From the NCBI GenBank assembly GCA_016933115.1, contig JAFGBL010000133.1, positions 1 through 33,880 on the forward strand: DNA of 33,880 bases. Direction: 5' to 3'. Positions 18,082 through 33,880 of this stretch are shown here, piece by piece. The first letter of the stretch is position 1. The number at the start of each line of letters is the position of its first letter. The stretch comes from Bacteroidales bacterium (lineage in GTDB: Bacteria; Bacteroidota; Bacteroidia; Bacteroidales; JAADJA01). The notes under the pieces are model-generated. The model was not told the origin of the DNA and made no database searches. It worked only from the letters and a program-made list of their open reading frames with translations. Position numbers and translations under genes: made by a program.

Positions 18082-18891
18082 ATGAAGACTTTTTTTTCTC
18101 TTTCAATTTTAGTCCTTTTTGGGACAATAGCAGGTTTCGGCCAGCGCATCTATTTTTGTGATAACTATACATCCTCAGGCGAGCCGATCGGCGCCAACAC
18201 CAAGGTTTCCTGTCCGGCGGAAGGAGGATATATTTATTTTCTTTATCAAAATGGAGTGAATAACCTTACGAACGGTAACTATTATATCAATGTAGATAAA
18301 CTCACAGGTGACAACTATGTGCCATTTGACGTAAAAACAGTTGTGTCCGATCCGTTGAAAAACTGGTTTGTTCATGATTATAAATTCATGACTGCGGGCG
18401 ATTACCGGATTACTGTAAAAAATTCTGCACTTCAGGAGATGGCTAAGGATTATCTTTCCCTTGTGCCATCCGAATCTCAAAGTTCTTCATCAACATCATC
18501 ATATAATTTTGACGACCCGGCAAGTACATTTTACTACACCTATTCCAAAGTGGAAGCTTCCACTTCTGTGAATTCCATCACGGGAGAAATACCAGCAGCA
18601 TATACTACTTTTAACATTGATGCAAGTCTGGGAGGACGCATTTATTTCAAGGTTTCAAATGAAGGAAAAGCTATTGGAACGGATAAATTTATTGTTTACA
18701 TTGATAAAATGGATGAAGCGGGAGAATACAAGACTCATGATACGAAAACATACGATCTGACGAATAAAAATGCGACCTGGGCGCAGTTTTACTACGATTT
18801 TTATTCCAGCGGAGAATACAGTATTACGGTGTATTCTACCTCCATGGTTTTCATCAATACGGTGAAGATTACGCTCAATTACAAGCAATAA
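18082..18891 (+). CDS. Secreted protein of two tandem related domains, function unknown
   Basis: 269 residues. Signal peptide 1-20 (MKTFFSLSILVLFGTIAGFGQ). Residues about 21-132 and 148-269 are two divergent copies of one beta-rich domain: the first has GGYIYFLYQNG, NYYINVDKL, YDFKxMTAGDYRITV-like elements and the second GGRIYFKVSNEG, KFIVYIDKM and YDFYSSGEYSITVYS in the same order and spacing. A Ser/Thr-rich linker (SSSSTSSYN, near 133-145) joins them. The domains resemble Ig-like or C2-like sandwiches in pattern, but I recognise no named family. There is its own promoter and a strong terminator, so it is monocistronic. It lies directly after the two-component system and may be regulated by it. 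Confidence 0.75.
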   Translation: MKTFFSLSILVLFGTIAGFGQRIYFCDNYTSSGEPIGANTKVSCPAEGGYIYFLYQNGVNNLTNGNYYINVDKLTGDNYVPFDVKTVVSDPLKNWFVHDYKFMTAGDYRITVKNSALQEMAKDYLSLVPSESQSSSSTSSYNFDDPASTFYYTYSKVEASTSVNSITGEIPAAYTTFNIDASLGGRIYFKVSNEGKAIGTDKFIVYIDKMDEAGEYKTHDTKTYDLTNKNATWAQFYYDFYSSGEYSITVYSTSMVFINTVKITLNYKQ

Positions 18892-19727: not shown

Positions 19728-21371
19728 CTATTCGAAAACGTATTTGGTTAATCCGAGTGAATTGTTTTTCCGGTCACGGCCGAGGAATATCGTCTCGTTC
19801 GAATCGGCTTTCTGAATTAACGGATAACTGCTGTAGCTCAGGTATTCTTTACCGAGTGGGAGTTCGGGATCGCTGATTTTGGCAGTAGTCAGGTCGATCT
19901 TCAGCACTTCCGGCTGATAACTGGCATAATAGGTAGCCCGATCGTTGAAAGCATCAAAAAAGCTATCATATCCCCTTTTGCCCTCAGGCTCGTAAAGAAC
20001 CCAGTAAACCTTCTTTTTATCTCCGGAAGTGACGAAAATATGTTGCATCTGGAATATCTTGTCATCTTTCTGTGTAGCCAGTTGCGGTTCGATGCAATAT
20101 TCAGCTTTTACATTACCCTGGTTGTCGAAATGGAAACAGGTGACGTCCTCATATGCTTTTCGTGCCGTACCTTCAATCATCACCACCCTGGTCCTTTGTC
20201 CTGCTACGATAATATCACCATTATCGAATACTTCAAAAGCCTGGATAGTAAACTTACCGAAATCTTTTTTCGGAACCTTCTTAACGGAGGGAGGAACTAC
20301 CCTGCGGCTTTCAATATCATTGGTGGAAGTAGCCTTGACATATTCCACATTTTGGCCTGATAATTTTACCATCACCAGGTTGTCCGGTTCCAGTTTCGTG
20401 ATCTTCTCCTCGCGCTGGTTATCACGATAATTGAAAAAATCAGGATAACAGGGATTGGAGATATTGGAGAAATCCATAAATTCATCGGCATAATAACTGG
20501 CTTTGTCCGGACTTGTCATACCAAAGAAATACAGATCGTTTCCATCCTGTTCCATTTGTGTAATAACCGTTGCCGGATCAGGCATCGACAAAGTAGTCTG
20601 CGAAACCTTATTTCCATCCCCATCGACCACATATGCCACATATTCCCTGGCATTGCCACCGCTGTTTTTCGAAGGCGCAAAAACGTACAGGGCATTGTAT
20701 TCGGCAAGGTTCCTGTTTTCATATTCGTCCTCTTCATCCGGATTTATTTTTACCAGGTCGGAATATACCAGCGTGTATTTATTCAGATTACCGATGGAAA
20801 CTTCCTTCACTTGCTGATCCAACGTAATGATAAGCAAAATGTATTGTTTACCTTCGTCCTTGCTTTTTTCTTTTACCAATACCAGGTTCGAACCGGTTTT
20901 TGCATCGAAATAGCCTACATAACCTTTATAATTAAAATCTTTCAGACTTTTACTGATGTCGGTTTTCTCCATATCACTGTCGTAACGCTGTTTTTTATTG
21001 TTCCAGGTTTCGGTAAGCGTGATCCTGTAAGCATTCAGATCCATGCTCAAAATGTCAAATGAGGAACAACCACCTACTGAAGTATAAATATAATCATAAG
21101 TCCGTGAAGGTTGATCACTCTTTTTAGCCTTCGGTTCTGATGATTCTTCCTCTTTCAGAAGTTTCAGGTCTTTATCAAAGGAATAATTTACAAATACGGT
21201 TTCTTTCTTCTTTAAGTAACCATAGGATATAGCCAAAGTTTCCTCATCTCCAAAACTGATATCAAAAAGGCCTCCGGCTTGTGCAGCTTTCGACAGAGGT
21301 TGTATACTTTGCTGGGAAAATACCATGTTTGCTGCTAATAACAGGGTAAATAAAAAAATCGTGATTTTCAT
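19728..21371 (-). CDS. Large secreted protein of unknown function
   Basis: 547 residues from ATG 21371; a longer frame to 21434 would run across the predicted promoter, and the signal peptide MKITIFLFTLLLAANMVFSQ begins at 21371. The mature protein is beta-rich with recurring strands of the type YVAYVVDGDGNKV, GKFTIQAFEVFDNGDIIVAGQ and VTCFHFDNQGNVKAEY, a pattern seen in Bacteroidota proteins that may fold as beta-propellers. Acidic linkers (EEESSEPKAKKSD, KINPDEEDEYEN) occur. No catalytic motif is recognised, and there is no C-terminal sorting domain. It has its own promoter (21398-21428) and terminator, so it is monocistronic. Location is periplasm or outer surface. Confidence 0.7.
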   Translation of the reverse strand: MKITIFLFTLLLAANMVFSQQSIQPLSKAAQAGGLFDISFGDEETLAISYGYLKKKETVFVNYSFDKDLKLLKEEESSEPKAKKSDQPSRTYDYIYTSVGGCSSFDILSMDLNAYRITLTETWNNKKQRYDSDMEKTDISKSLKDFNYKGYVGYFDAKTGSNLVLVKEKSKDEGKQYILLIITLDQQVKEVSIGNLNKYTLVYSDLVKINPDEEDEYENRNLAEYNALYVFAPSKNSGGNAREYVAYVVDGDGNKVSQTTLSMPDPATVITQMEQDGNDLYFFGMTSPDKASYYADEFMDFSNISNPCYPDFFNYRDNQREEKITKLEPDNLVMVKLSGQNVEYVKATSTNDIESRRVVPPSVKKVPKKDFGKFTIQAFEVFDNGDIIVAGQRTRVVMIEGTARKAYEDVTCFHFDNQGNVKAEYCIEPQLATQKDDKIFQMQHIFVTSGDKKKVYWVLYEPEGKRGYDSFFDAFNDRATYYASYQPEVLKIDLTTAKISDPELPLGKEYLSYSSYPLIQKADSNETIFLGRDRKNNSLGLTKYVFE

Positions 21372-21397
21372 ATTTAATATTTTATGGATTAGAGGAT

Positions 21398-21428
21398 CAA
21401 AAGTAGGAGGCCGGGTTGGACTGTACAA
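21398..21428 (-). promoter_or_regulatory. Promoter of the 547-residue secreted protein gene
   Basis: On the minus strand TTG (21428-21426), 20-bp spacer, TACTTTTG (21405-21398). Full match to the Bacteroidota consensus. It also decides the start codon, because the longer frame would begin upstream of this promoter. Confidence 0.62.
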
Positions 21429-21573
21429 TAACATATAAGTAGTAATTAACTAACCACTGGTAATTAAAATTTGCGGTATTGTGTATTTATTTAAATTTCG
21501 TCTTATGACAATAATCTGAACCATTTTTCTCGTGTATTATCAAAATATTTTTCCATGAAATTATATTATTTGA

Positions 21574-23572: not shown

Positions 23573-24676
23573 ATGAAAAAACAGCCTACCATTTATGAAG
23601 AAATCCGGGAAAAAGGCTATTCACGGCGGGATTTTATCAAATTCTGCAGTATGATGGCTGCCATGCTCGGATTGGAATCAAGTGCAATCAGCCAGGTGGC
23701 CAGGGCGCTTGAATCGAAACCCCGGTTGCCATTGATCTGGTTGCACGGGCAGGAATGTACCTGTTGCAGCGAGTCGTTTATCCGGTCATCGCACCCCATT
23801 GTTTCCGATATTTTGCTCGACAAGGTTTCGCTCGATTATACCGAAACCTTAATGGCTGCTGCCGGTCATCAGGCTGAAGCTGCCATGCACAAAACCATGC
23901 AGGATTATGCCGGTAAATATATTTTGCTTTGTGAGGGTTCGATCCCAACAAACGCAGGAGGTGTATATTGCTGCATCGGAGGAAGAACTTATGAAGATAT
24001 AATCCAGGAGGCGGCTGAAAATGCCATGGCAGTGGTTGCATGGGGCAATTGCGCATGCTCTGGTTGTGTTCAGGCTGCGGCTCCAAATCCAACCGGTGCC
24101 AAACCCATCAGCAAGATCATTACCGGAAAGCCGATTATCAATGTTCAGGGTTGCCCTCCCATTGCAGAGGTAATGGCAGGAGTTGTGGTTCATCTCCTCA
24201 CTTTTGACAGGATTCCGCAACTCGATGGTCTGGGAAGGCCTAAGGCCTTTTATTCAAGAAGGGTCCATGATACCTGCTACCGGAGGCCCAATTATGACGC
24301 AGGATTGTTTGTCGAATCCTTCGACGATGAAAATGCCAAACGTGGATATTGTCTATACAAAGTGGGCTGTAAAGGTCCGAATACCTATAACTCATGTGGT
24401 GTGATCCGCTGGAATAATGGAGTAAGTTTCCCCATTCAATCGGGTCATCCTTGTATAGGATGCAGTGAAGCCAACTTTTGGGATAACGGTCCGTTCTATC
24501 GTAAACTACCGGAATTCCCTGGCTTCGGCATTGAATCCACTGCCGATAAAGTTGGAGTGGGCCTGGGTATAGCCACTGCAGTGGGTATTACGGCGCATGC
24601 CGTTACAACTAATATCAGGAAGAAAAAACTCATTGAAAAAGGTTTTTGCGATCCTGAAGAAGAAAATAAAGAATAA
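23573..24676 (+). CDS. hyaA: Membrane-bound uptake [NiFe]-hydrogenase small subunit, six-cysteine O2-tolerant type
   Basis: 367 residues. Tat signal with R18-R19 in YSRRDFIK. Proximal cluster ligands are C62, C65, C160 and C194, and the extra cysteines C64 (in ECTCC) and C165 (in NCACSGC) are those that create the [4Fe-3S] cluster of O2-tolerant group 1d enzymes. An additional C162 is present. The distal cluster uses H232, C235, C260 and C266, and the medial cluster C275, C294 and C297. A C-terminal transmembrane anchor spans about 326-346. The sequence follows Ralstonia HoxK and E. coli HyaA closely in motif order. It passes electrons from the active site to cytochrome b on the periplasmic face. 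The stop is 17 bp before the large subunit. Confidence 0.95.
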   Translation: MKKQPTIYEEIREKGYSRRDFIKFCSMMAAMLGLESSAISQVARALESKPRLPLIWLHGQECTCCSESFIRSSHPIVSDILLDKVSLDYTETLMAAAGHQAEAAMHKTMQDYAGKYILLCEGSIPTNAGGVYCCIGGRTYEDIIQEAAENAMAVVAWGNCACSGCVQAAAPNPTGAKPISKIITGKPIINVQGCPPIAEVMAGVVVHLLTFDRIPQLDGLGRPKAFYSRRVHDTCYRRPNYDAGLFVESFDDENAKRGYCLYKVGCKGPNTYNSCGVIRWNNGVSFPIQSGHPCIGCSEANFWDNGPFYRKLPEFPGFGIESTADKVGVGLGIATAVGITAHAVTTNIRKKKLIEKGFCDPEEENKE

Positions 24677-24680
24677 AATC

Positions 24681-24685
24681 GGAGG
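24681..24685 (+). promoter_or_regulatory. Strong Shine-Dalgarno GGAGG before the large subunit
   Basis: GGAGG ends 8 bases before ATG 24694. Shine-Dalgarno sequences are rare in this window, so this is an exception and supports the chosen start. Confidence 0.65.
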
Positions 24686-24693
24686 AAAATAAC

Positions 24694-26415
24694 ATGGAAA
24701 AACGTATAGTAGTAGATCCCATTACCAGAATAGAAGGCCATCTCCGGGTTGAGGTGGAAGTTAAGGACGGTAAGATCATAGATGCATACAGTTCGGGAAC
24801 AATGGTTCGCGGATTGGAGCTCATTCTGAAGGGCCGTGATCCGCGCGATGCCTGGGCATTTACCGAAAGGGTTTGTGGTGTTTGCACCACCGTACATGCA
24901 CTGGCATCGGTACGCACCGTTGAAGACGCCCTCGGTGTTGCTGTTCCGCCCAATGCCGAAATGGTCAGAAATCTCATGTTCTGTGCTCAATATATGCAGG
25001 ATCACGTGATTCACTTTTACCATTTGCATGCACTGGATTGGGTGGATGTAGTTTCCGCTTTGAGTGCCGATCCTGCGGCAACTTCACAGTTGGCACAAAG
25101 CATCTCCAACTGGCCCAAAAGTTCGCCAGGATATTTCTCCGACTTGCAAAAGCGATTGACAAAATTTGTCGAGAGTGGCCAACTGGGCATTTTTGCAAAC
25201 GGTTATTGGGGTCATCCGGCCTATAAATTGCCACCGGAAGTAAATTTGATTGGTGTAGCACACTACCTTGAGGCCCTCGAATGGCAAAAAGAGATCATTA
25301 AAGTCCATACTATTTTTGGTGGTAAGAATCCCCATCCCAACTACCTTGTGGGTGGTGCTCCCTGCGCCATCAATCTCGATGAAAACAATGCACTCAATGC
25401 CGAGCGGTTGGCATTTGTGGGCAAGCTTCTGGAAGATGCGCACACTTTTATCAACCAGGTTTATATTCCTGATTTGCTTGCGGTGGCATCATTCTATAAA
25501 AACGATTGGGGCGCTATCGGAGGCGGACTCTCCAATTATTTGTGCTATGGTGATTTGCCGACAAACGGTTATTCGGATGTCGAGCGTTTTAAGTTTCCTC
25601 GTGGTATTATCATGAACCGAAACCTGAATGAAGTGCTGGAAGTTGACGGAAAGGATCCCGATCAAATCAAGGAGTTCATTTCTCACAGTTATTACGACTA
25701 TTCAGGTGGAAACGGAGAAGGCCGTCATCCCTGGGATGGCGAAACAAAACTTAACTACACAGGCCCGAAACCACCATATGAATATTTGAATGTTGAGGAT
25801 AAATACAGTTGGCTCAAAACCCCAAGATGGAAAGGTAATCCGATGGAGGTTGGCCCTTTATCAAGGATGCTGGTAGGTTATGCATCGGGCCGGGAAGAGT
25901 ATAAAAATGTGGTTCATTATGCTTTGAACAAGCTGGATGTTCCTGTAACTGCCTTGTTCTCTACATTAGGCAGGACCGCTGCCCGTGGTTTGGAATCCAT
26001 CCTCGTCGCTGACTGGGCAAAAGAATTCTACCAGCAATTGTTATCTAATATTAAAAATGGCGATACCCGGATGGTGAATAACGACAAGTGGGAACCTTCT
26101 ACTTGGCCGGCAGAGGCCAAAGGCGTTGGAATGACCGAAGCACCACGGGGTGCACTTGCCCACTGGATCGTGATAAAGGATAAGAAAATTGATAACTACC
26201 AATTGGTTGTACCGAGTACCTGGAATGCATCACCCAGGGATGGGAACGGTAAAAGATCGGCCTATGAAGAGTCGTTGATCGGGACACCCATTGCCAATCC
26301 TGAACAACCGCTCGAAATTTTGAGAACGATCCACTCGTTTGATCCCTGCCTGGCTTGCGCAGTTCATGTTTATGATGAAAAGGGCAAATATGTTCACCAG
26401 ATTCAAACCTTTTAA
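24694..26415 (+). CDS. hyaB: [NiFe]-hydrogenase large subunit
   Basis: 573 residues. The N-terminal motif RVCGVCTTVHAL supplies active-site ligands C61 and C64, and the C-terminal motif DPCLACAVH supplies C552 and C555. H558 is the last residue of the mature form; the 15 residues after it (VYDEKGKYVHQIQTF) are the extension removed by the HyaD-type protease encoded downstream. The body has the usual group 1 features such as DPITRIEGHLRVE at the start and GRTAARGLES in the C-terminal third. It oxidises H2 in the periplasm after co-export with the small subunit by Tat. Preceded by a clear Shine-Dalgarno. Confidence 0.96.
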   Translation: MEKRIVVDPITRIEGHLRVEVEVKDGKIIDAYSSGTMVRGLELILKGRDPRDAWAFTERVCGVCTTVHALASVRTVEDALGVAVPPNAEMVRNLMFCAQYMQDHVIHFYHLHALDWVDVVSALSADPAATSQLAQSISNWPKSSPGYFSDLQKRLTKFVESGQLGIFANGYWGHPAYKLPPEVNLIGVAHYLEALEWQKEIIKVHTIFGGKNPHPNYLVGGAPCAINLDENNALNAERLAFVGKLLEDAHTFINQVYIPDLLAVASFYKNDWGAIGGGLSNYLCYGDLPTNGYSDVERFKFPRGIIMNRNLNEVLEVDGKDPDQIKEFISHSYYDYSGGNGEGRHPWDGETKLNYTGPKPPYEYLNVEDKYSWLKTPRWKGNPMEVGPLSRMLVGYASGREEYKNVVHYALNKLDVPVTALFSTLGRTAARGLESILVADWAKEFYQQLLSNIKNGDTRMVNNDKWEPSTWPAEAKGVGMTEAPRGALAHWIVIKDKKIDNYQLVVPSTWNASPRDGNGKRSAYEESLIGTPIANPEQPLEILRTIHSFDPCLACAVHVYDEKGKYVHQIQTF

Positions 26416-26426
26416 AAACTGACGCT

Positions 26427-27113
26427 ATGGCAATTACTGGAAATAATAAGTTTAGTATGCGGCAGGAATATGTCTGGCAACTGCCGGTCCGGTTCTATCA
26501 CTGGATCAATGCGCTGTGCATTGTGATCCTGGTAATTACCGGATATATCATCGGAAACCCGCCCGCTTTGCAAAGTGGTTCCGAGGCTTCGTACAGTTAC
26601 TGGTTCGGAACGGTGCGATTCATTCATTTTATCACCGCTTTTGTTTTCTTCTTTAACTTCATATTCCGGATTTACTGGGGTTTTGCAGGAAATAAATATG
26701 CCAAATGGACAAATTTTATTCCTTTTACCAAAAAACACTGGACGGACATTTGGGAAGTATTGAAAGTTGATATTTTTCAGGTCAAATGTAAACCTGCACA
26801 TAACATGGGACACAATTCACTGGCTGCTTTCACCTATTTCCTGACTTTCATTGCTTTTCTACTTCAGTGCCTGACAGGGTTCGGATTGTACGCAGCCATG
26901 AGTACTTCATGGTTCCCTCAACTTTTTGCGTGGGTTGTTCCATTGTTGGGAGGCGATTTGGCGGCCAGGATGGTTCACCACATATTGATGTGGTTCTTCA
27001 TCGTGTTTGCCATGATTCATGTGTACCTGGTATTTTACCATGATTACATCGAGCGGAACGGTGTTACCTCATCTATGATCGGCGGCTGGAAATTTATAGA
27101 AGAAGAAAAATAG
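26427..27113 (+). CDS. hyaC: Ni/Fe-hydrogenase b-type cytochrome subunit
   Basis: 228 residues with four hydrophobic segments (about 26-46, 65-90, 130-155 and 185-208). Histidines in the first (RFYHWINAL), second (VRFIHFITAF) and last helices (VHHILMWFFIVFAMIHVY) fit the two-haem arrangement of the HyaC/HupC family. It receives electrons from the small subunit and reduces the quinone pool. It lies 11 bp after the large subunit, so co-translation is likely. The C-terminus (YHDYIERNGVTSSMIGGWKFIEEEK) is the standard family ending. Confidence 0.92.
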   Translation: MAITGNNKFSMRQEYVWQLPVRFYHWINALCIVILVITGYIIGNPPALQSGSEASYSYWFGTVRFIHFITAFVFFFNFIFRIYWGFAGNKYAKWTNFIPFTKKHWTDIWEVLKVDIFQVKCKPAHNMGHNSLAAFTYFLTFIAFLLQCLTGFGLYAAMSTSWFPQLFAWVVPLLGGDLAARMVHHILMWFFIVFAMIHVYLVFYHDYIERNGVTSSMIGGWKFIEEEK

Positions 27114-27127
27114 AACCCATTTAACTT

Positions 27128-27176
27128 TATTTTTGCGGCTTTGTGCATTTTCGGAAGTTTTTTTAAAGAAAATGCA
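27128..27176 (+). promoter_or_regulatory. Possible internal promoter and hairpin before the maturation protease
   Basis: TATTTTTG at 27128-27135 matches TAnnTTTG, without a clear -33 element. TGCATTTTC (27144-27152) and GAAAATGCA (27168-27176) form a perfect 9-bp inverted repeat with a 15-nt loop. It may be a weak internal promoter plus RNA hairpin in the 102-bp gap. Confidence 0.3.
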
Positions 27177-27215
27177 TGAGGACGTTAAATCTTTTGTTTC
27201 TTGAGCTAAAACAGA

Positions 27216-27692
27216 ATGACTAATCAGTCTGAAATTAAAACAAAGAGAATCCTGATCCTGGGAATGGGAAATATATTACTTGGTGATGAAGGTGTTGGAG
27301 TTAGAGCCGTTGAATATCTTGAAAAACAGAAACTACCCGATTACGTTGATTTATTGGATGGCGGCACTGGAGGATTTACTTTATTGCCTGAATTACTCAA
27401 ATACGAGGAAGTGATATTGATCGATGCTACGTTGGATGACAATCCACCCGGGAGCATTCGCGTGATCAAACCAAAATTTGCATCCGACTTTCCGAAAGCT
27501 ATGAGTACACATGATATCGGGCTGAAAGATCTTATCGAATCTGCATCAATCCTGGAAAAACTACCTGAATTGCATTTGATCGTAGTTACCATCAAGGATA
27601 TTCAACCTATGGATTTACATCTTTCAACTGAAATTGAAAAGAAACTACCTGGGGTTTATCAAACGGTATTAAAAATATTGAATGAAATCTGA
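27216..27692 (+). CDS. hyaD: Hydrogenase maturation endopeptidase (HyaD/HupD type)
   Basis: 158 residues. Family motifs: ILGMGNILLGDEGVG with the Glu that binds nickel, a second ligand Asp in VILIDATLDD, and the His in MSTHDIGLKDL. This protease recognises nickel in the nearly finished large subunit and removes the tail after the conserved His; the matching 15-residue tail is present in the large subunit here. It is the last gene of the operon. An AGGAGG sequence follows its stop codon without a gene after it. Confidence 0.92.
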   Translation: MTNQSEIKTKRILILGMGNILLGDEGVGVRAVEYLEKQKLPDYVDLLDGGTGGFTLLPELLKYEEVILIDATLDDNPPGSIRVIKPKFASDFPKAMSTHDIGLKDLIESASILEKLPELHLIVVTIKDIQPMDLHLSTEIEKKLPGVYQTVLKILNEI

Positions 27693-27719: not shown

Positions 27720-28169
27720 TTAAAGAATTTCAGTTTTCAGGATTTCATTGTCCTCGCTGATCAATATTAATTTCCTTGTGAAATCCGTCTGTTTAACAAT
27801 GATTTCGTAACTGTTTTGCGATCCTTTCTGAATATAAATAACATTCATTATTTCACCTTGCCGTGAAGCTGTATCATTTATTGGTTCCGGCAGTTCTGAC
27901 ACGGTTTGATTGGTGCGAATTTCGGTCATTTGCCCCAGTGCATTAAAAAAAGCCAATTTCTCAATATTTTCATGATGAAAAAGAGCTTCGTAGTGATCGC
28001 CCACTTTGTGCCACTCGGTGTTAACCGGATTATTAAAGTTTTTAGCAAAACCCTCTGTTACCTGCCTTGGCGGTAGATGAAAATCTTTTTTCAGAAGTTT
28101 TTGATAAAAACTTTTCAAGTCGAAGAATTTTATGACGTTATGAAGACGTGATTCCATAATGCTAGTCAC
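27720..28169 (-). CDS. Small PepSY-like protein downstream of the ECF sigma factor
   Basis: 149 residues, or 145 from the second ATG. There is no signal peptide. The segment VTEGFAKNFNNPVNTEWHKVGDHYEALFHHENIEKLAFFNALGQMTEIRT resembles one PepSY-like (DUF2874-type) unit: VxxxFxxxFPxAxxxxWxxxxxxYxAxFxxxGxxxxxxFdxxGxWxet. The rest is a beta-rich C-terminal half (MNVIYIQKGSQNSYEIIVKQTDF). Its start is 8 bp after the sigma factor stop, so the two genes form an operon. A regulatory partner of the sigma factor is possible; I do not recognise an established anti-sigma domain. Confidence 0.55.
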   Translation of the reverse strand: MTSIMESRLHNVIKFFDLKSFYQKLLKKDFHLPPRQVTEGFAKNFNNPVNTEWHKVGDHYEALFHHENIEKLAFFNALGQMTEIRTNQTVSELPEPINDTASRQGEIMNVIYIQKGSQNSYEIIVKQTDFTRKLILISEDNEILKTEIL

Positions 28170-28177
28170 AAATTGAG

Positions 28178-28744
28178 TTAATCCTTATATATTTCCTTAT
28201 AAATAAAAAGCACCCTGGCTTTGGCCCTTTTAATCCTCATTTTGGTTGCGCTTTCACTGATCCTGAGTGCCTGCCCGATTTGCTGGATGCTCAAATTATC
28301 GCTGTATTTCATTAATAGCAGAGCTTTCTCCTCAGGGTGAATCATTTCCAGGATTTTTACCAGCCGTTCATAATTGATTTCTTCCTGGTCGTCCTGGGAT
28401 TCTTCAATTATTTCAGGTATCTCATGATTGCTGTTCCATTCTGGATAGTGTAATTTATTTTTGTTCCGGAGGTAGTCAATACAATAATTGTAGGTAATTG
28501 AATATAACCAGGATAAAAATGAGGCTGTGCCTTTAAATGTATTCAATTTCTCATAGGTTTTTTCAAAAATATTTTGACGTGATTCTTCCGCCAGTTCCCT
28601 GTGCTTCAGCAAGGTGTAACACTTGTCAAGAACTTTCCTGCTATATCTCTGGTAAAGGATTTCGAACAATTCGGTTTTATGCTCTTGCAGGATGATCGAA
28701 ATGATCTCCTCATCCTTCAATGATTTGTAATTATCCAGATGCAT
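28178..28744 (-). CDS. ECF-type RNA polymerase sigma factor
   Basis: 188 residues. Region 2 at about 25-95 (LFEILYQRYSRKVLDKCYTLL, AEESRQNIFEKTYEKLNTFKGTASFLSWLYSITYNYCIDYLRN) and region 4 at about 128-180 (LEMIHPEEKALLLMKYSDNLSIQQIGQALRISESATKMRIKRAKARV). An acidic linker (EIPEIIEESQDDQEEINYE) lies between. There is no region 1 or 3, as in group 4 sigma factors. Such factors usually answer envelope signals. It is divergent from the lipoprotein/transpeptidase genes across 235 bp, which makes that cluster a candidate regulon. No FecR-type anti-sigma gene is adjacent; the PepSY-like gene takes that position. Confidence 0.9.
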   Translation of the reverse strand: MHLDNYKSLKDEEIISIILQEHKTELFEILYQRYSRKVLDKCYTLLKHRELAEESRQNIFEKTYEKLNTFKGTASFLSWLYSITYNYCIDYLRNKNKLHYPEWNSNHEIPEIIEESQDDQEEINYERLVKILEMIHPEEKALLLMKYSDNLSIQQIGQALRISESATKMRIKRAKARVLFIYKEIYKD

Positions 28745-28979: not shown

Positions 28980-29582
28980 ATGAAAAGAAATCTTGTATTA
29001 ATGGTAATGTCGGTTATCACGGTGATACTGATGTCGGGTTGTAATAAAATACCTCAAACCGAAATTGATGCAGCTAACCAGGCACTGAACGAGGCAAAAT
29101 CATCAGGTGCTGAGTTGTATCTTCCCGATTATTATAATCAAACGATGGATTCGTTAAATGCAGTTGTAGTTAAACTCGAATCCAAAAAATCGAAATGGTT
29201 TGCCAGTTATAGCGATGAAAAGTCAAAACTGGAAGACGTCAGGTTAATGGCTACACAGCTAAAAGAAAATACTGAAGTAAGGAAAAATGAAATTAAGAAT
29301 GAAATTCAGAATACCCTTACCGAAATGAAGCAGACCCTCGAAGAAAACAAACAATTGTTGACCCAGGCACCACAGGGTAAAGAAGGGAAGGCAGCTCTGG
29401 AAGCTATAAAAGAGGAAATGGGTATGTTGGAGGCTTCTATTGATGAAGTGATGAACCTTATTGCATCCGAACAATACCTGGAAGCTCAAAACAAAGTTAA
29501 TGTTTCCAACGAAAAAGTTCTTGCCATTAATATGGAATTAAAGAATGCAATAGCTAAAAGTTCCAGAAAAGGACACAAATAA
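28980..29582 (+). CDS. Helical lipoprotein with DUF4398-like module and C-terminal lysine
   Basis: 200 residues. Lipoprotein signal with lipobox LMSGC, lipidated Cys21. The mature part is almost entirely charged helix: EAKSSGAELYLPDYYNQTMDSL, KKSKWFASYSDEK, then a long coiled coil (KNEIQNTLTEMKQTLEENKQLL). It ends in SSRKGHK, with a free C-terminal lysine, a feature shared with the murein lipoprotein Lpp of E. coli. The N-terminal domain of the next gene product aligns with it over its whole length. A terminator lies directly after it, so it is probably expressed much more than the enzymes that follow. Structural or tethering role is inference. Confidence 0.72.
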   Translation: MKRNLVLMVMSVITVILMSGCNKIPQTEIDAANQALNEAKSSGAELYLPDYYNQTMDSLNAVVVKLESKKSKWFASYSDEKSKLEDVRLMATQLKENTEVRKNEIKNEIQNTLTEMKQTLEENKQLLTQAPQGKEGKAALEAIKEEMGMLEASIDEVMNLIASEQYLEAQNKVNVSNEKVLAINMELKNAIAKSSRKGHK

Positions 29583-29603
29583 AATAAAAGTCATTGCCCG
29601 ATA

Positions 29604-29633
29604 ATCCCCGGAATAAAATTTCCGGGGATTTTT
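29604..29633 (+). terminator. Rho-independent terminator between lipoprotein and transpeptidase genes
   Basis: Perfect 10-bp stem ATCCCCGGAA (29604-29613) / TTCCGGGGAT (29620-29629), 6-nt loop, then TTTT to 29633. The first ATG of the next gene begins at the base after it. Partial termination would set a high lipoprotein to enzyme ratio. Confidence 0.8.
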
Positions 29634-30767
29634 ATGTTTATTAACCAGATGTCAGCCATCATTCGAAGCAAGATTCCGCTTATTACAATAACAGTAATTT
29701 TATTACTCATTGGAGGGATCTATTTGGTTTTCCTGTTAACACCTTCTCCTCCTGAAACTAGGTTTGAAGAGGCCAGAATGTCCATTTCAGATGCAAAAAA
29801 AACCGGGGCAGACATTTATTCATCCCAATATTTCCTGAAAGCTGAGAACCTTTATGATTCGGCGCTTATCCTTTGGAAAAATGAAAACAGGAAATTTATC
29901 TTATTCCGGAGTTATGCCCAGATCGATACATGTATAAATCACATTATTAAGTATGCTGAAAAAGCTAAAGTTGAGTCTTTGCACAATGTCCGAAACATTC
30001 AGGCCATTGTTGCCAATGAGATCGAACATCAGCAACGTTCAATCTTAAAACATGAGAACCTGATCAAAAGCCTCCCGAAGAATAAAACAGCCAACCTAAG
30101 TTTTGAAAAAGGAAAATTGATGCTGGCCGAAGCAAGGTTCGATTTTGAGCGGAAAAATTATCAAAATGCCAGGCAAAAATTACAGCAATCAGCACAAAAT
30201 CTTAACCATTCAATTTCACAGTTAAAAGAAGTATTAATTGATTATTTCAAGAGTCATTCAGACTGGACCGAATGGAACCGGCAGACGATTGAATTATCAA
30301 AAAAAACAGGTAAAACTGCTATTGTTGTTGATAAAATGGCAAGGAAATGCTACCTGTATAAAAAGGGAAAACTTAAAGAAAGTTTTTCTGCAGAGTTGGG
30401 TTTGAACTGGATTGGGGATAAGCAAATGAAAGGTGATAAATCAACACCCGAAGGGATGTATCTGGTTACAAAAAAATTAGATTCAAAAAAAACCAAATAT
30501 TATAAAGCTTTAATGATCAATTATCCCAATGAGGATGATCAAACCCGTTTCAAGGAAAACCTGAAAAATGGGAATATTCCAAAAGGGTCTCAAATTGGTG
30601 GATTAATTGAAATCCACGGCGAAGGCGGTAAAGGTGTGGATTGGACCGATGGTTGTGTGGCATTGATTAATTCGGATATGGATGTTGTTTTCAGGATGGC
30701 GGAAATTGGCACCCCGGTTACTATTGTAGGTTCCCTTGCGGGATTATCTGAAATACTGAAAAACTGA
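29634..30767 (+). CDS. L,D-transpeptidase-family (YkuD, short-spacing/YafK-like) enzyme with lipoprotein-like N-terminal domain
   Basis: 377 residues; an alternative start at ATG 29649 frees it from the terminator. Membrane anchor about 14-35. Residues about 42-205 form a helical module that aligns with the preceding lipoprotein (DAKKTGADIYSSQYF vs EAKSSGAELYLPDYY). Residues about 228-370 form a YkuD domain: AIVVDKMARKCYLYKKGKL, STPEGMYLVTKKL, then IEIHGEGG (H328) and TDGCVAL with nucleophile C341. The His-Cys spacing is short and the usual SHGC His is Asp, a pattern closer to the YafK group than to the ErfK group. It acts in the periplasm on mDAP peptides of peptidoglycan, as a transpeptidase or as an amidase like E. 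coli YafK (DpaA). Role here is inference. Confidence 0.82.
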   Translation: MFINQMSAIIRSKIPLITITVILLLIGGIYLVFLLTPSPPETRFEEARMSISDAKKTGADIYSSQYFLKAENLYDSALILWKNENRKFILFRSYAQIDTCINHIIKYAEKAKVESLHNVRNIQAIVANEIEHQQRSILKHENLIKSLPKNKTANLSFEKGKLMLAEARFDFERKNYQNARQKLQQSAQNLNHSISQLKEVLIDYFKSHSDWTEWNRQTIELSKKTGKTAIVVDKMARKCYLYKKGKLKESFSAELGLNWIGDKQMKGDKSTPEGMYLVTKKLDSKKTKYYKALMINYPNEDDQTRFKENLKNGNIPKGSQIGGLIEIHGEGGKGVDWTDGCVALINSDMDVVFRMAEIGTPVTIVGSLAGLSEILKN

Positions 30768-30773
30768 GCCGAC

Positions 30774-31562
30774 ATGAATAAACAATTTACTGAAATTGAT
30801 TTGCTCAAGCCAATACTCCAATTAAAGAATGGACTTATCATTTGGGTGACTAAAAAAATTACCTTTTTAAAAAACCTTGACCACATTTATCCCAGGTATT
30901 TCAGAATATTTTTACCCCTTTTATGCGCTGTTACTCCCGTTGCGGTTTTATTGGTATATATTGCTTTTCTACCGGCAATACAGGAAGGTGGAAATATTTT
31001 TTTAACGTCTCATCATCCGGTCATTATAAAGGATTCGGCGGACAATGAAAATGTTGACGCGATGGTGGCCCGGCAAAAAAACATCGGGAAATTACAACGG
31101 GCATTAAATAAACTCACCCCCTCTTCATCCTATTTATTGATAAACACCTCCGAAAATAAATTCCAACTTTATTCGGGAAAAAAACTGATCCGTGAAGGGA
31201 TTTGCTCAACAGGAAGCTATACCATGCTGGTTTCGGGGGAAAACAAAAAATGGATATTCAAAACACCGAAAGGGATTTTTAGAATCAGGGATAAAAAAAC
31301 CTCTCCGGTTTGGAAAAAGCCTGACTGGGCGTTTGTTGAGGAAGGATTACCCATTCCACCCCCCAATCATGATTCAAGGTTTGAATACGGTACGTTGGGA
31401 GATTATGCTTTGAGCCTGGGCGATGGATATATGATCCACGGAACATTATATCAACGATTCCTGGGATTGCCCGTAACACACGGTTGTGTGAGACTTGGTG
31501 ATGACGATCTTGAAAAAGTTTATCATACACTTTCAATTGGATCAAAAGTTTACATATTCTAG
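30774..31562 (+). CDS. L,D-transpeptidase (YkuD domain, canonical motif)
   Basis: 262 residues. Membrane anchor about 43-68 (RIFLPLLCAVTPVAVLLVYIAFLPAI). YkuD domain about 120-262: SSSYLLINTSENKFQLYSGKKL, FKTPKGIFRI, MIHGT with H222, and THGCVRL with H236 and nucleophile C238, a good match to the L,D-transpeptidase signature. Such enzymes form 3-3 crosslinks or attach proteins to mDAP of peptidoglycan. It starts 6 bp after the previous gene and ends 11 bp before the next, a tight operon. Together with the previous enzyme it forms a pair with different active-site types. Confidence 0.87.
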   Translation: MNKQFTEIDLLKPILQLKNGLIIWVTKKITFLKNLDHIYPRYFRIFLPLLCAVTPVAVLLVYIAFLPAIQEGGNIFLTSHHPVIIKDSADNENVDAMVARQKNIGKLQRALNKLTPSSSYLLINTSENKFQLYSGKKLIREGICSTGSYTMLVSGENKKWIFKTPKGIFRIRDKKTSPVWKKPDWAFVEEGLPIPPPNHDSRFEYGTLGDYALSLGDGYMIHGTLYQRFLGLPVTHGCVRLGDDDLEKVYHTLSIGSKVYIF

Positions 31563-31573
31563 ATTCATCAAAA

Positions 31574-32374
31574 ATGAATAAAAAAGACAAAAATTCAGGA
31601 AAAATCATACAATGGTTCGACCGTGTCAGCAGAAAACCTGTTTTGACTGTATTGCTGGCTATTCTAGTGCTTATTTTCATGACGACCGGGATATTGACTT
31701 CCTTATCTCCATATCAGTATCTGGGGGAACTGAATAAGCAGTTTCGATCCGATTCATTAATGATTCAGGTTAGCTCAAATGCATTGGATTCTTTGAAATT
31801 TGAAGAAGCATTTTTAAAGTCCCGATTGACTCTTTCGTCACTGGATTCCATTTCACTGGTTATTAACCTGAAGGACAGCCTGGCAACCCTTGAGATAAAA
31901 GGCGTTGTCATCTATTCTGTTAAAATCGAAAAAATAAATCAGAGTCTTATTTTTAATAAAATGGATCCCCGTTTAAGGTTGTTGGAATTTACTGATCCTA
32001 TGCAGGTTTCCGGTGTTTTTTCAACCATCCCGAAAGAGCAATATATGGTCAAGAATGCCCCTGCTGATACTTCTGATCTGCAATCTGCCCTTCCGGTAAT
32101 TGACACGGTTATTACCGATGCCGTCTGCTATATATTTTATTTTGAAAATGGATTACAGTTTGAGATTCGACAATTGGAAGCCCCATCAGGAAAAGTTTTA
32201 CGACAGTATGACCGGCATAACAAAAGGAAAGAAATATTCAAAATTGCAGGTGACCTTTTGCGTTTCAAAATACCCGATTATCGGCCCCAAATCAGCATTG
32301 AAATCAGAGGTGTAAATGCCCGAACCATCTTCCGGGCATTACCCGTCAAACCTGCGGTAGTTTTGAAATTCTAA
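31574..32374 (+). CDS. Membrane-anchored periplasmic protein of unknown function
   Basis: 266 residues. Basic N-terminus, then a single transmembrane helix about 23-45 (PVLTVLLAILVLIFMTTGILTSL), and a periplasmic domain. The latter has a long helix (LNKQFRSDSLMIQVSSNALDSLKFEEAFLKSRLTLSSLDS), a beta segment (LATLEIKGVVIYSVKI) and a basic C-terminal region. No catalytic motif is recognised. It is the last gene of the lipoprotein-transpeptidase cluster, 11 bp after the second enzyme, so it likely works with them, perhaps as an assembly or positioning factor. The downstream M28 gene is convergent, 16 bp away. Confidence 0.6.
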   Translation: MNKKDKNSGKIIQWFDRVSRKPVLTVLLAILVLIFMTTGILTSLSPYQYLGELNKQFRSDSLMIQVSSNALDSLKFEEAFLKSRLTLSSLDSISLVINLKDSLATLEIKGVVIYSVKIEKINQSLIFNKMDPRLRLLEFTDPMQVSGVFSTIPKEQYMVKNAPADTSDLQSALPVIDTVITDAVCYIFYFENGLQFEIRQLEAPSGKVLRQYDRHNKRKEIFKIAGDLLRFKIPDYRPQISIEIRGVNARTIFRALPVKPAVVLKF

Positions 32375-32390
32375 GGGAAAATTCAACCTG

Positions 32391-33880
32391 CTATTGTTTG
32401 GCTTCGGGAATTATTTTCAGGGAAATCCTTTCCCCTTTCCTTTTCACCTCAATGTCGGTTTCCACATCCGGCTTCAGTTGGCCCATGATATTCATAAAAT
32501 CGTAGATGTTATTGGTTTCTTTCCCATCAAGCCCGATAATGATATCGTCTGCCTGCAATCCTGCTTTTTCGGCGGGGCCACCCGGCCTTACGCCCTGTAT
32601 CTGAACTCCCGGTTCATCGCTGCCGGCATAAGCCGGAATGGTTCCCAGTGAAACCGTCGCAGCTCCCCGGCTGCCTTTTTTCGATTTTACTTGCACTTCA
32701 TGAAACGAGAGTGCCTGTTCGGGTTTCATGAGTTCGTTGATGACCAGCGAAGCCAGTTTTGTTACGCGATGCATACCTTCGAAGTTGATGAACTCAACAT
32801 CATCCGTGGGTGTATGATAATCATTGTGCACGCCGGTAAAAAAGCTGACCACTGGAATGCCTTTTAAATAAAATGAAGTTGCATCCGTCGGCAGATATGG
32901 ATCGCTGCTAAAAGTGAGATCAAAACCAGCCACCACATTTTTCTTTTCGAAAAAGGATTTCCATTCATCGGCAGAACCGATTCCCTGAATATCGAGTTTG
33001 TTGTTATTCACCCGGCCAACCATATCGAAATTGAAATAAGCCTTGATTTTTTCAGAAGGAACCGGCAAATGATTTGTGAAAGCCCCTGAACCCAATAGAC
33101 CCAATTCTTCACCCGACCAACTACAGAAAACCAGGTTATGTGTAATTTTTTCCGGATTGTCTTTCCTTTGACCCGCATAATATTCGGCCAGTTCGATCAC
33201 TGCCACGGTTCCGGATCCGTTATCGTCAGCACCATTGTGGATTTCATGCTTGTGTTCCAGTGTGGCCCGGGAGTTGGTTTCACCATGGCCCAGGTGGTCA
33301 TAGTGTGCACCGATAAAAATGTAATCTGCATCCGGGTTTGAAGAAGGTACCATAGCAACAACATTGTTATCCTGCGATTCGATCCGCTCTACTTTGGTGT
33401 GGATATCCGCGGTTGAAGCGGTTTCAAAAAGATGGTCGTTCCCTTTTGGATCCCCATCTTTAAGTTTTTCCTTAAGTTGTTCTACTGTTTGGTCAGAACC
33501 GGCCAGAATCTGATCAGCTGCATTTTCGGAAATCTGCAGAGAAATAATTCCCGAAGTACCGACGACCTCATGGCTCTCTTCATTTACGATCCTGTTGGTT
33601 ATGATCAGGATGGCCTTTGCCCCGTTTTGCCTTGCGATCATTTGCTTGTAACCGCTGGCAATATTCCGTTCAAAAAGTTTTTCTTTTTCTTTGTCTAACC
33701 CGGAAGGAATGCCATCGAGAACCATCACAATTTTATCTTTCACATCCAGCGAAGAATATGAATCATAATTATAGTCGGATCCGTTATTGATCTTCAGTCC
33801 GTAACCTGCAAAGACAATATTCCCGTTTGCTTCACCGCTTTCGGTTGATGCCATGGGTTTATAGTCTTCGTTTAGCTTAA
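32391..33880 (-). CDS. M28 aminopeptidase with PA and PDZ domains (5' end outside window)
   Basis: The frame is open to the window edge without a stop; an internal ATG at 33854 is probably not the start. N-terminal visible part is a PA-like domain (IVFAGYGLKINNG, VKDKIVMVLDG). The M28 zinc peptidase follows: GAHYDHLGHG, NGADDNGSGT, CSWSGEELGLLGS, FDMVGR and GVHNDYHTPTDD supply the ligands of the two-zinc centre. A C-terminal PDZ domain (GVRPGGPAEKAGLQADDIIIGLDGKE) ends the protein. It most likely acts in the periplasm or on the cell surface, cleaving N-terminal residues from peptides. Substrate unknown. Confidence 0.9.
   Translation of the reverse strand, partial: KLNEDYKPMASTESGEANGNIVFAGYGLKINNGSDYNYDSYSSLDVKDKIVMVLDGIPSGLDKEKEKLFERNIASGYKQMIARQNGAKAILIITNRIVNEESHEVVGTSGIISLQISENAADQILAGSDQTVEQLKEKLKDGDPKGNDHLFETASTADIHTKVERIESQDNNVVAMVPSSNPDADYIFIGAHYDHLGHGETNSRATLEHKHEIHNGADDNGSGTVAVIELAEYYAGQRKDNPEKITHNLVFCSWSGEELGLLGSGAFTNHLPVPSEKIKAYFNFDMVGRVNNNKLDIQGIGSADEWKSFFEKKNVVAGFDLTFSSDPYLPTDATSFYLKGIPVVSFFTGVHNDYHTPTDDVEFINFEGMHRVTKLASLVINELMKPEQALSFHEVQVKSKKGSRGAATVSLGTIPAYAGSDEPGVQIQGVRPGGPAEKAGLQADDIIIGLDGKETNNIYDFMNIMGQLKPDVETDIEVKRKGERISLKIIPEAKQ

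Follow-up and report, generated by a model that had tools for sequence, protein, structure and literature searches.

A co-inherited Bacteroidota operon encoding a lipoprotein, two YkuD enzymes, and a probable pseudo-enzyme: a candidate outer membrane-peptidoglycan linkage system

A four-gene operon was analyzed in 33,880 nucleotides from a Bacteroidales bacterium (Genome Taxonomy Database lineage Bacteria; Bacteroidota; Bacteroidia; Bacteroidales; JAADJA01), which correspond to positions 1 to 33,880 of contig JAFGBL010000133.1 (forward strand; GenBank assembly GCA_016933115.1); this whole stretch is called the window below. The genes lie on the plus strand at 28980-32374, with intergenic gaps of 51, 6, and 11 bases, and encode a lipoprotein, a DpaA/YafK-like YkuD protein (enzyme 1), an ErfK-type YkuD protein (enzyme 2), and a fourth protein (Table 1); the last three have one strong N-terminal hydrophobic segment each. 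An earlier note on this DNA, made from its letters alone, had described a tightly spaced, one-strand set with two YkuD enzymes. The open reading frames were confirmed, and both enzymes exceed the Pfam YkuD cut-off of 23.4 bits. Here, we report that the genes are inherited as a set, and we weigh whether they link the outer membrane to peptidoglycan. Newly recognized are the probable pseudo-enzyme character of the fourth protein, DpaA residues in enzyme 1, and a terminator-like feature after the lipoprotein gene.

The lipoprotein was present in 19 out of 149 relatives searched whole (its profile matched 22 genomes, three of them by weak partial matches at about E = 1e-4), and the fourth protein and the enzyme 1 helical module had an identical distribution, occurring in those 19 genomes and nowhere in the other 130. 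When 84,980 species' genomes were scanned with the lipoprotein loop motif AP(R/K)GK(E/D)G as the search pattern, 233 relatives emerged, of which 80 were kept (loci L043-L122). The order lipoprotein, enzyme 1, enzyme 2, fourth protein was complete in 73 of 82 loci, including one from another class of the phylum (L152); out of the nine incomplete loci, seven reach a contig end, one (L051) has four genes inserted ahead of enzyme 1, and the last (L151) is taken up below. The complete order was also seen in L128-L134, an additional seven genomes of which six (L129-L134) belong to another class. The co-occurrence of the lipoprotein with a dedicated enzyme set, raised in the earlier note as a matter for comparative genomics, thus held up. 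Within one genus of the other class, the YkuD gene count is four in carriers and two in each of two congeners without the operon. Of the 19 carriers that belong to the window's taxonomic order, 11, including the genome of the window itself, had no YkuD gene found outside the operon. The YkuD loci of non-carriers (L135-L143) had no relative of the lipoprotein or the fourth protein there. One of these loci (L135, G136:C12:34676-36888) has three consecutive YkuD genes in a genome without the lipoprotein; they are unrelated to the operon families at the level tested.

The lipoprotein orthologue set comprised 98 distinct sequences, 90 from Bacteroidia and 8 from another class of the phylum. Its N-terminal part weakly matched DUF4398 (PF14346), a domain with no assigned function, in 7 of 19 members (best, 3.5e-6), the window lipoprotein scoring 16.6 bits, under the curated cut-off of 27.9. 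The Lpp family (PF04728) was absent from the Pfam matches of the window lipoprotein, and a search of 10 carrier genomes found none, with E. coli positive as the control; a search of solved structures with the lipoprotein profile gave no credible relative. The acidic motif for surface export of Bacteroidota lipoproteins, K-(D/E)2 or Q-A-(D/E)2 (PMC5080379), does not follow the lipidated Cys, where the sequence reads C-N-K-I-P-Q, and because of this absence the lipoprotein is likely to sit in the outer membrane facing the periplasm.

Enzyme 1 carries a module like the helical part of the lipoprotein, as the earlier note had proposed. The two proteins matched in BLASTP (E = 1e-7), and hhalign gave 98.4% probability for the lipoprotein family against the module family. 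A profile of the module, run against the 149 genomes, picked up the lipoprotein and nothing further beyond enzyme 1 in each of the 19 carriers, and the remaining 130 genomes gave no match; conversely, the lipoprotein profile detected enzyme 1 in 11 carriers. Chance similarity between coiled coils was rejected, as the genome-wide profiles match each other and, beyond these mutual matches, gave only three short weak matches near E = 1e-4. By these sequence comparisons, the shared module is real. In a structure model of enzyme 1 (mean predicted local distance difference test score [pLDDT], 92.8), the module folds as a bundle of helices, one of them about 52 residues long. That helix appears to end at a turn corresponding to the APQGKEG loop of the lipoprotein, a mapping made from the enzyme 1 model.

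Enzyme 2 has the canonical active site THGCVRL, and the THGC and the transpeptidase Arg (that of HGC-x-R; PMC8263019) are conserved in its family. The NCBIfam models PRK10260, PRK10190, and TransPepLdtE match it locally, all below cut-off (at most 34.2 bits against cut-offs of at least 480), so that by profile score enzyme 2 is not an equivalog of LdtA-E; among solved structures, the nearest is 4lzh, an ErfK-type enzyme from Klebsiella. For enzyme 1, the earlier note had pointed to a short His-to-Cys spacing like that of YafK. The DpaA-like character of the active site stands, but the distance of 13 (H328-C341) is intermediate between the 8 of E. coli DpaA (H135-C143) and the 16 of enzyme 2 (H222-C238). 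NCBIfam LdtF_DpaA_YafK was matched by all 19 enzyme 1 members, far under the equivalog cut-off (NF040599 against the window protein, 31.1 bits; cut-off, 365), which makes enzyme 1, on its scores, a DpaA relative and not an equivalog.

DpaA is an amidase with a YkuD domain that has Ala or Asn two residues past the catalytic Cys (PMC8263019); Lys83 binds meso-diaminopimelic acid (mDAP), and Tyr109 packs against the lysine (PMC10653827). When 26 enzyme 1 sequences were aligned to E. coli DpaA (locus L144), K83, Cys143, and Ala145 were kept in all 26 (GC-V/I-A) and Y109 in 25 (F in the other), K or R stood at the R108 position in 20, and loops L1-L2 aligned gap-free. In carboxypeptidases, a Trp two positions ahead of the catalytic His lines the D-Ala pocket; at this position, enzyme 1 has Glu in 25 sequences and Gln in 1 (Met in DpaA). 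Since K83, Y109, and Ala145 are kept and this Trp is absent, enzyme 1 seems closer in type to DpaA than to the typical D-Ala carboxypeptidases; its active-site residues make the latter identity less likely without eliminating it. The closest solved folds were Bd1075 and DpaA (Foldseek), and the closest sequences were DpaA, Pgp2, Bd1075, and Csd6; comparison with VIA gave no separation, several transpeptidases, Csd6, and Pgp2 ranking above DpaA.

The fourth protein, which the earlier note had listed as a membrane protein, does have the hydrophobic segment that this name implies, but most likely also a YkuD fold lacking catalytic residues, which the note had overlooked. It belongs to no Pfam family, and a Pfam scan of its family gave nothing useful. 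When its model (mean pLDDT, 82) was searched with Foldseek and VIA, all matches listed (50 each) were L,D-transpeptidase/YkuD entries. The best were modest (Foldseek, E of 3.6e-3 and probability of 0.96; VIA, Z of 7.0 and root mean square deviation of 3.1 over 95 residues), and a Z below 8 can reflect a common arrangement. Two short stretches of residual sequence similarity line up in order with enzyme 2, the second spanning the catalytic segment, where varying residues stand in place of the Cys; across 89 sequences, no His or Cys column reaches 60% conservation. We consider it very probable that this protein is a YkuD-fold pseudo-enzyme without the catalytic His and Cys. A viral fold model search with it found nothing, and two solved glycosyltransferases that matched the family profile (E of about 0.002) were discarded, as only the N-terminal membrane-anchor region aligned.

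Between the lipoprotein gene and enzyme 1, a hairpin followed by a T tract resembles an intrinsic terminator. By one fixed criterion, a terminator-like feature occurs at 68 of 88 such junctions, compared with 1 of 85 and 2 of 79 at the two following ones, counts that are not independent, many loci being related; the stem sequences differ. Mononucleotide shuffles (one per lipoprotein junction) gave none. Given a conserved terminator behind its gene, the lipoprotein should be in excess over the enzymes, and such an excess should fit a structural substrate. Codon bias was also considered as a sign of high expression: codons ending in C are more frequent in the lipoprotein gene (0.446 versus about 0.36; 77 loci). 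This value was not used as evidence, since in the genome of the window itself the measure did not pick out ribosomal genes. The predicted start of enzyme 1 (29634) lies immediately 3' of the hairpin, within its T tract, and the true start may be the ATG at 29649.

We see about an even chance that the operon is a dedicated, probably reversible system linking the outer membrane to peptidoglycan. This reading draws on the joint inheritance and recurring gene order, the lack of Lpp in the carriers searched, the operon's share of the YkuD genes, the DpaA residues of enzyme 1, the THGC and transpeptidase Arg of enzyme 2, and the terminator behind the lipoprotein gene. In such a system, the abundant, periplasm-facing lipoprotein would be the linked partner. 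Enzyme 2 would join one of its lysines (K134 or, in Bacteroidia, a tail Lys) to mDAP of a stem peptide, and enzyme 1, held in the inner membrane, would cut the lipoprotein-mDAP bond, its helical module serving as a docking or mimic domain for the lipoprotein. The fourth protein, with its YkuD fold and no active site, may regulate or scaffold the enzymes. Of all lysines in the lipoprotein, K134, in the AP(R/K)GK(E/D)G loop, is the best conserved (97/98), although this motif was itself the search pattern for 80 loci; the genomes found by profile are independent of the pattern, and they keep the GK pair except for L151. The version specified in every part, a reversible tether unrelated to Lpp in which enzyme 2 couples K134 to mDAP, enzyme 1 releases it by means of its substrate copy, and the dead YkuD paralogue switches the balance, is unlikely to be right as a whole.

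Several observations weigh against a linkage system. The last residue of the lipoprotein is Lys in 48 of the 90 Bacteroidia sequences and in none of the 8 from the other class; in Bacteroidia, it is otherwise Arg (28/90) or one of Y, S, I, N, F, and H (14/90). Cultured carriers include Alkaliflexus imshenetskii DSM 15055 (L095; tail ending ARSSKKR), Labilibaculum manganireducens (L066; KNKRK), and Mariniphaga sediminis (L093; KYMKKS). The window lipoprotein does end in Lys, and the earlier note had built on this a Braun-type mechanism with the C-terminal Lys as the attachment residue, naming orthologues that lack it as the counterevidence; such orthologues are found in both classes. By itself, a terminal Lys is weak evidence, because it is also the last residue for 20% of 240 neighbouring genes and, among the periplasmic proteins and lipoproteins of E. 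coli, for more than 20% (PMC12274547). As a rule for the whole family, the strict C-terminal-Lys mechanism was rejected on these counts, and we hold it to be highly improbable. What survives of the proposed attach-and-detach set is the co-inheritance of an ErfK-type and a DpaA-like enzyme with the lipoprotein; the Braun-style attachment does not. Tethering through another Lys is still viable: in Legionella, the attachment point of Lpg1810 is a Lys eleven residues away from the C terminus (PMC11841132), and K134 is near-invariant. A Lys is found among the last ten residues in all 90 Bacteroidia lipoproteins. Out of the 8 from the other class, 4 have one in this region and 4 have none. Locus L151 (G584:C34) has the lipoprotein and enzyme 1 with neither enzyme 2 nor the fourth protein nearby, and its lipoprotein lacks both the GK(E/D)G loop and the basic tail; that genome has six other YkuD genes. 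DpaA Q86 is kept in only 3 of the 26 enzyme 1 sequences, and K130 and Y131 in none. Finally, the literature searched, which mostly does not cover subscription journals, contained no biochemical or other experiments on any of these proteins.

The main rival reading has a lipoprotein that is not bonded at all. In E. coli, LpoA and LpoB control PBP1A and PBP1B, and the lipoprotein could likewise be a non-covalent outer-membrane regulator or scaffold that reaches and controls the inner-membrane YkuD enzymes through its module and the AP(R/K)GK(E/D)G loop. It is the loop, not the C terminus, that is conserved across two classes; some orthologues have no tail Lys; the presence of the module in enzyme 1 could reflect pairing; and the fourth protein resembles a non-catalytic partner. 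A stoichiometric activator, however, would not need the excess that the conserved terminator points to; the Lys that all Bacteroidia sequences retain near the end also speaks against this explanation, which we regard as possible but somewhat unlikely. The relationships of enzyme 1 also bear on the linkage reading, for its similarity in sequence and fold to DpaA is about equalled by that to the L,D-carboxypeptidases Bd1075, Pgp2, and Csd6. Many bacteria that lack Lpp have DpaA-like proteins, some of which may be carboxypeptidases (PMC8263019). The operon might thus encode a peptidoglycan-remodelling pair, as with these cell-shape enzymes, in which enzyme 1 trims tetrapeptides, enzyme 2 makes 3-3 cross-links, and the lipoprotein positions them. 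The Glu in place of the D-Ala pocket Trp and the gap-free alignment of the L2 segment to DpaA speak against such a pair, as does the lack, behind the catalytic domain of enzyme 1, of any counterpart to the NTF2-type accessory domain described for Pgp2 (PMC8038945), and we judge it quite improbable.

The proposed linkage system resembles that of E. coli Lpp with LdtA/B/C (ErfK, YbiS, and YcfS) and DpaA (YafK) in its helix-rich, predicted outer-membrane lipoprotein, presumably in excess of the enzymes, its HGC-x-R YkuD transpeptidase type, and its GC-x-A YkuD amidase type. It differs in that the lipoprotein has no detected sequence relation to Lpp, is 180 rather than 58 residues long, and has no conserved terminal Lys; that the genes form one operon; that enzyme 1 has a lipoprotein-like module and a membrane anchor; and that there is an extra, apparently dead YkuD protein. 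With Bd1075, Pgp2, and Csd6, the nearest folds and sequences to enzyme 1 besides DpaA, enzyme 1 has the mDAP-binding Lys in common (PMC10653827), but it differs from them in its pocket Glu, its loop L2, and the lack of a domain behind the catalytic one. L,D-transpeptidases attach diverse envelope proteins (OutB of Dickeya, Lpg1810 of Legionella, LimB of Coxiella, and beta-barrels of Brucella, Agrobacterium, and Coxiella), using internal lysines (PMC11841132) and non-Lpp tails (PMC12274547). All of these tethers, unlike this operon, are from Proteobacteria. To our knowledge, none of them lies in an operon with matching attaching and releasing enzymes plus a pseudo-enzyme. The system falls outside the Lpp type and most likely works like L,D-transpeptidase tethering. 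The role of DpaA-like enzymes in the many bacteria without Braun's lipoprotein was an open question of the DpaA paper (PMC8263019), and Bacteroidota do not come up in a recent review on L,D-transpeptidases (PMC12729407). In the operon described here, the set inherited with the DpaA-like enzyme includes a candidate partner, an enzyme that may oppose it, and a probable pseudo-enzyme. As the operon is the whole YkuD complement found in about half of the carriers of the window's taxonomic order, single mutants would be informative. If the linkage reading is true, Bacteroidota evolved covalent anchoring of the outer membrane, and the means to reverse it, with a lipoprotein unrelated to Lpp.

Table 1. 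Coordinates of the operon, its parts, and two adjoining genes in the window
Feature	Position	Strand	Remarks
Lipoprotein gene	28980..29582	+	200-aa precursor; lipobox MSG/C21; 180-residue mature helical part ending RKGHK
Codon of lipidation Cys21	29040..29042	+	Invariant, 98/98 orthologues
APQGKEG loop with K134	29367..29387	+	Most conserved Lys of the family
Basic C-terminal tail KSSRKGHK	29556..29579	+	K193 in 90/98; last-residue Lys not conserved
Intrinsic terminator-like hairpin, lipoprotein/enzyme 1 junction	29603..29630	+	Fold, -19.1 kcal/mol
Enzyme 1, membrane-anchored DpaA/YafK-like YkuD protein	29634..30767	+	377 aa; Pfam YkuD, 60.3 bits
Helical module of enzyme 1, lipoprotein homologue	29745..30272	+	BLASTP, hhalign, profile search, modelled helices
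YkuD catalytic domain of enzyme 1	30315..30725	+	H328, C341, Ala343
Enzyme 2, membrane-anchored ErfK-type YkuD protein (THGCVRL)	30774..31562	+	262 aa; Pfam YkuD, 70.9 bits
Fourth protein, membrane-anchored, YkuD fold without catalytic His/Cys, probable pseudo-enzyme	31574..32374	+	266 aa
Divergent extracytoplasmic function (ECF) sigma factor	28178..28744	-	Sigma70_r2, 2.1e-11; frequent neighbour in Bacteroidia
149-aa protein adjoining the sigma factor	27720..28169	-	Frequent neighbour

The ECF sigma factor and the 149-aa protein (27720-28744) are divergent from the lipoprotein gene and occupy the same place in most Bacteroidia loci; the sigma factor is a possible regulator, and envelope-stress control of the operon is possible. 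On the other side, an M28-type peptidase with a PDZ-like C terminus (32391-33878; named from its sequence, not from a profile) is convergent with the operon, and such a peptidase adjoins the operon directly in locus L026 too. Farther upstream, proteins of 568 (19728-21434) and 269 (18082-18891) residues had no Pfam match at 1e-5, and NiFe hydrogenase genes at 23573-27692 encode a small subunit, a large subunit, a cytochrome b, and a HycI-type maturation protease.

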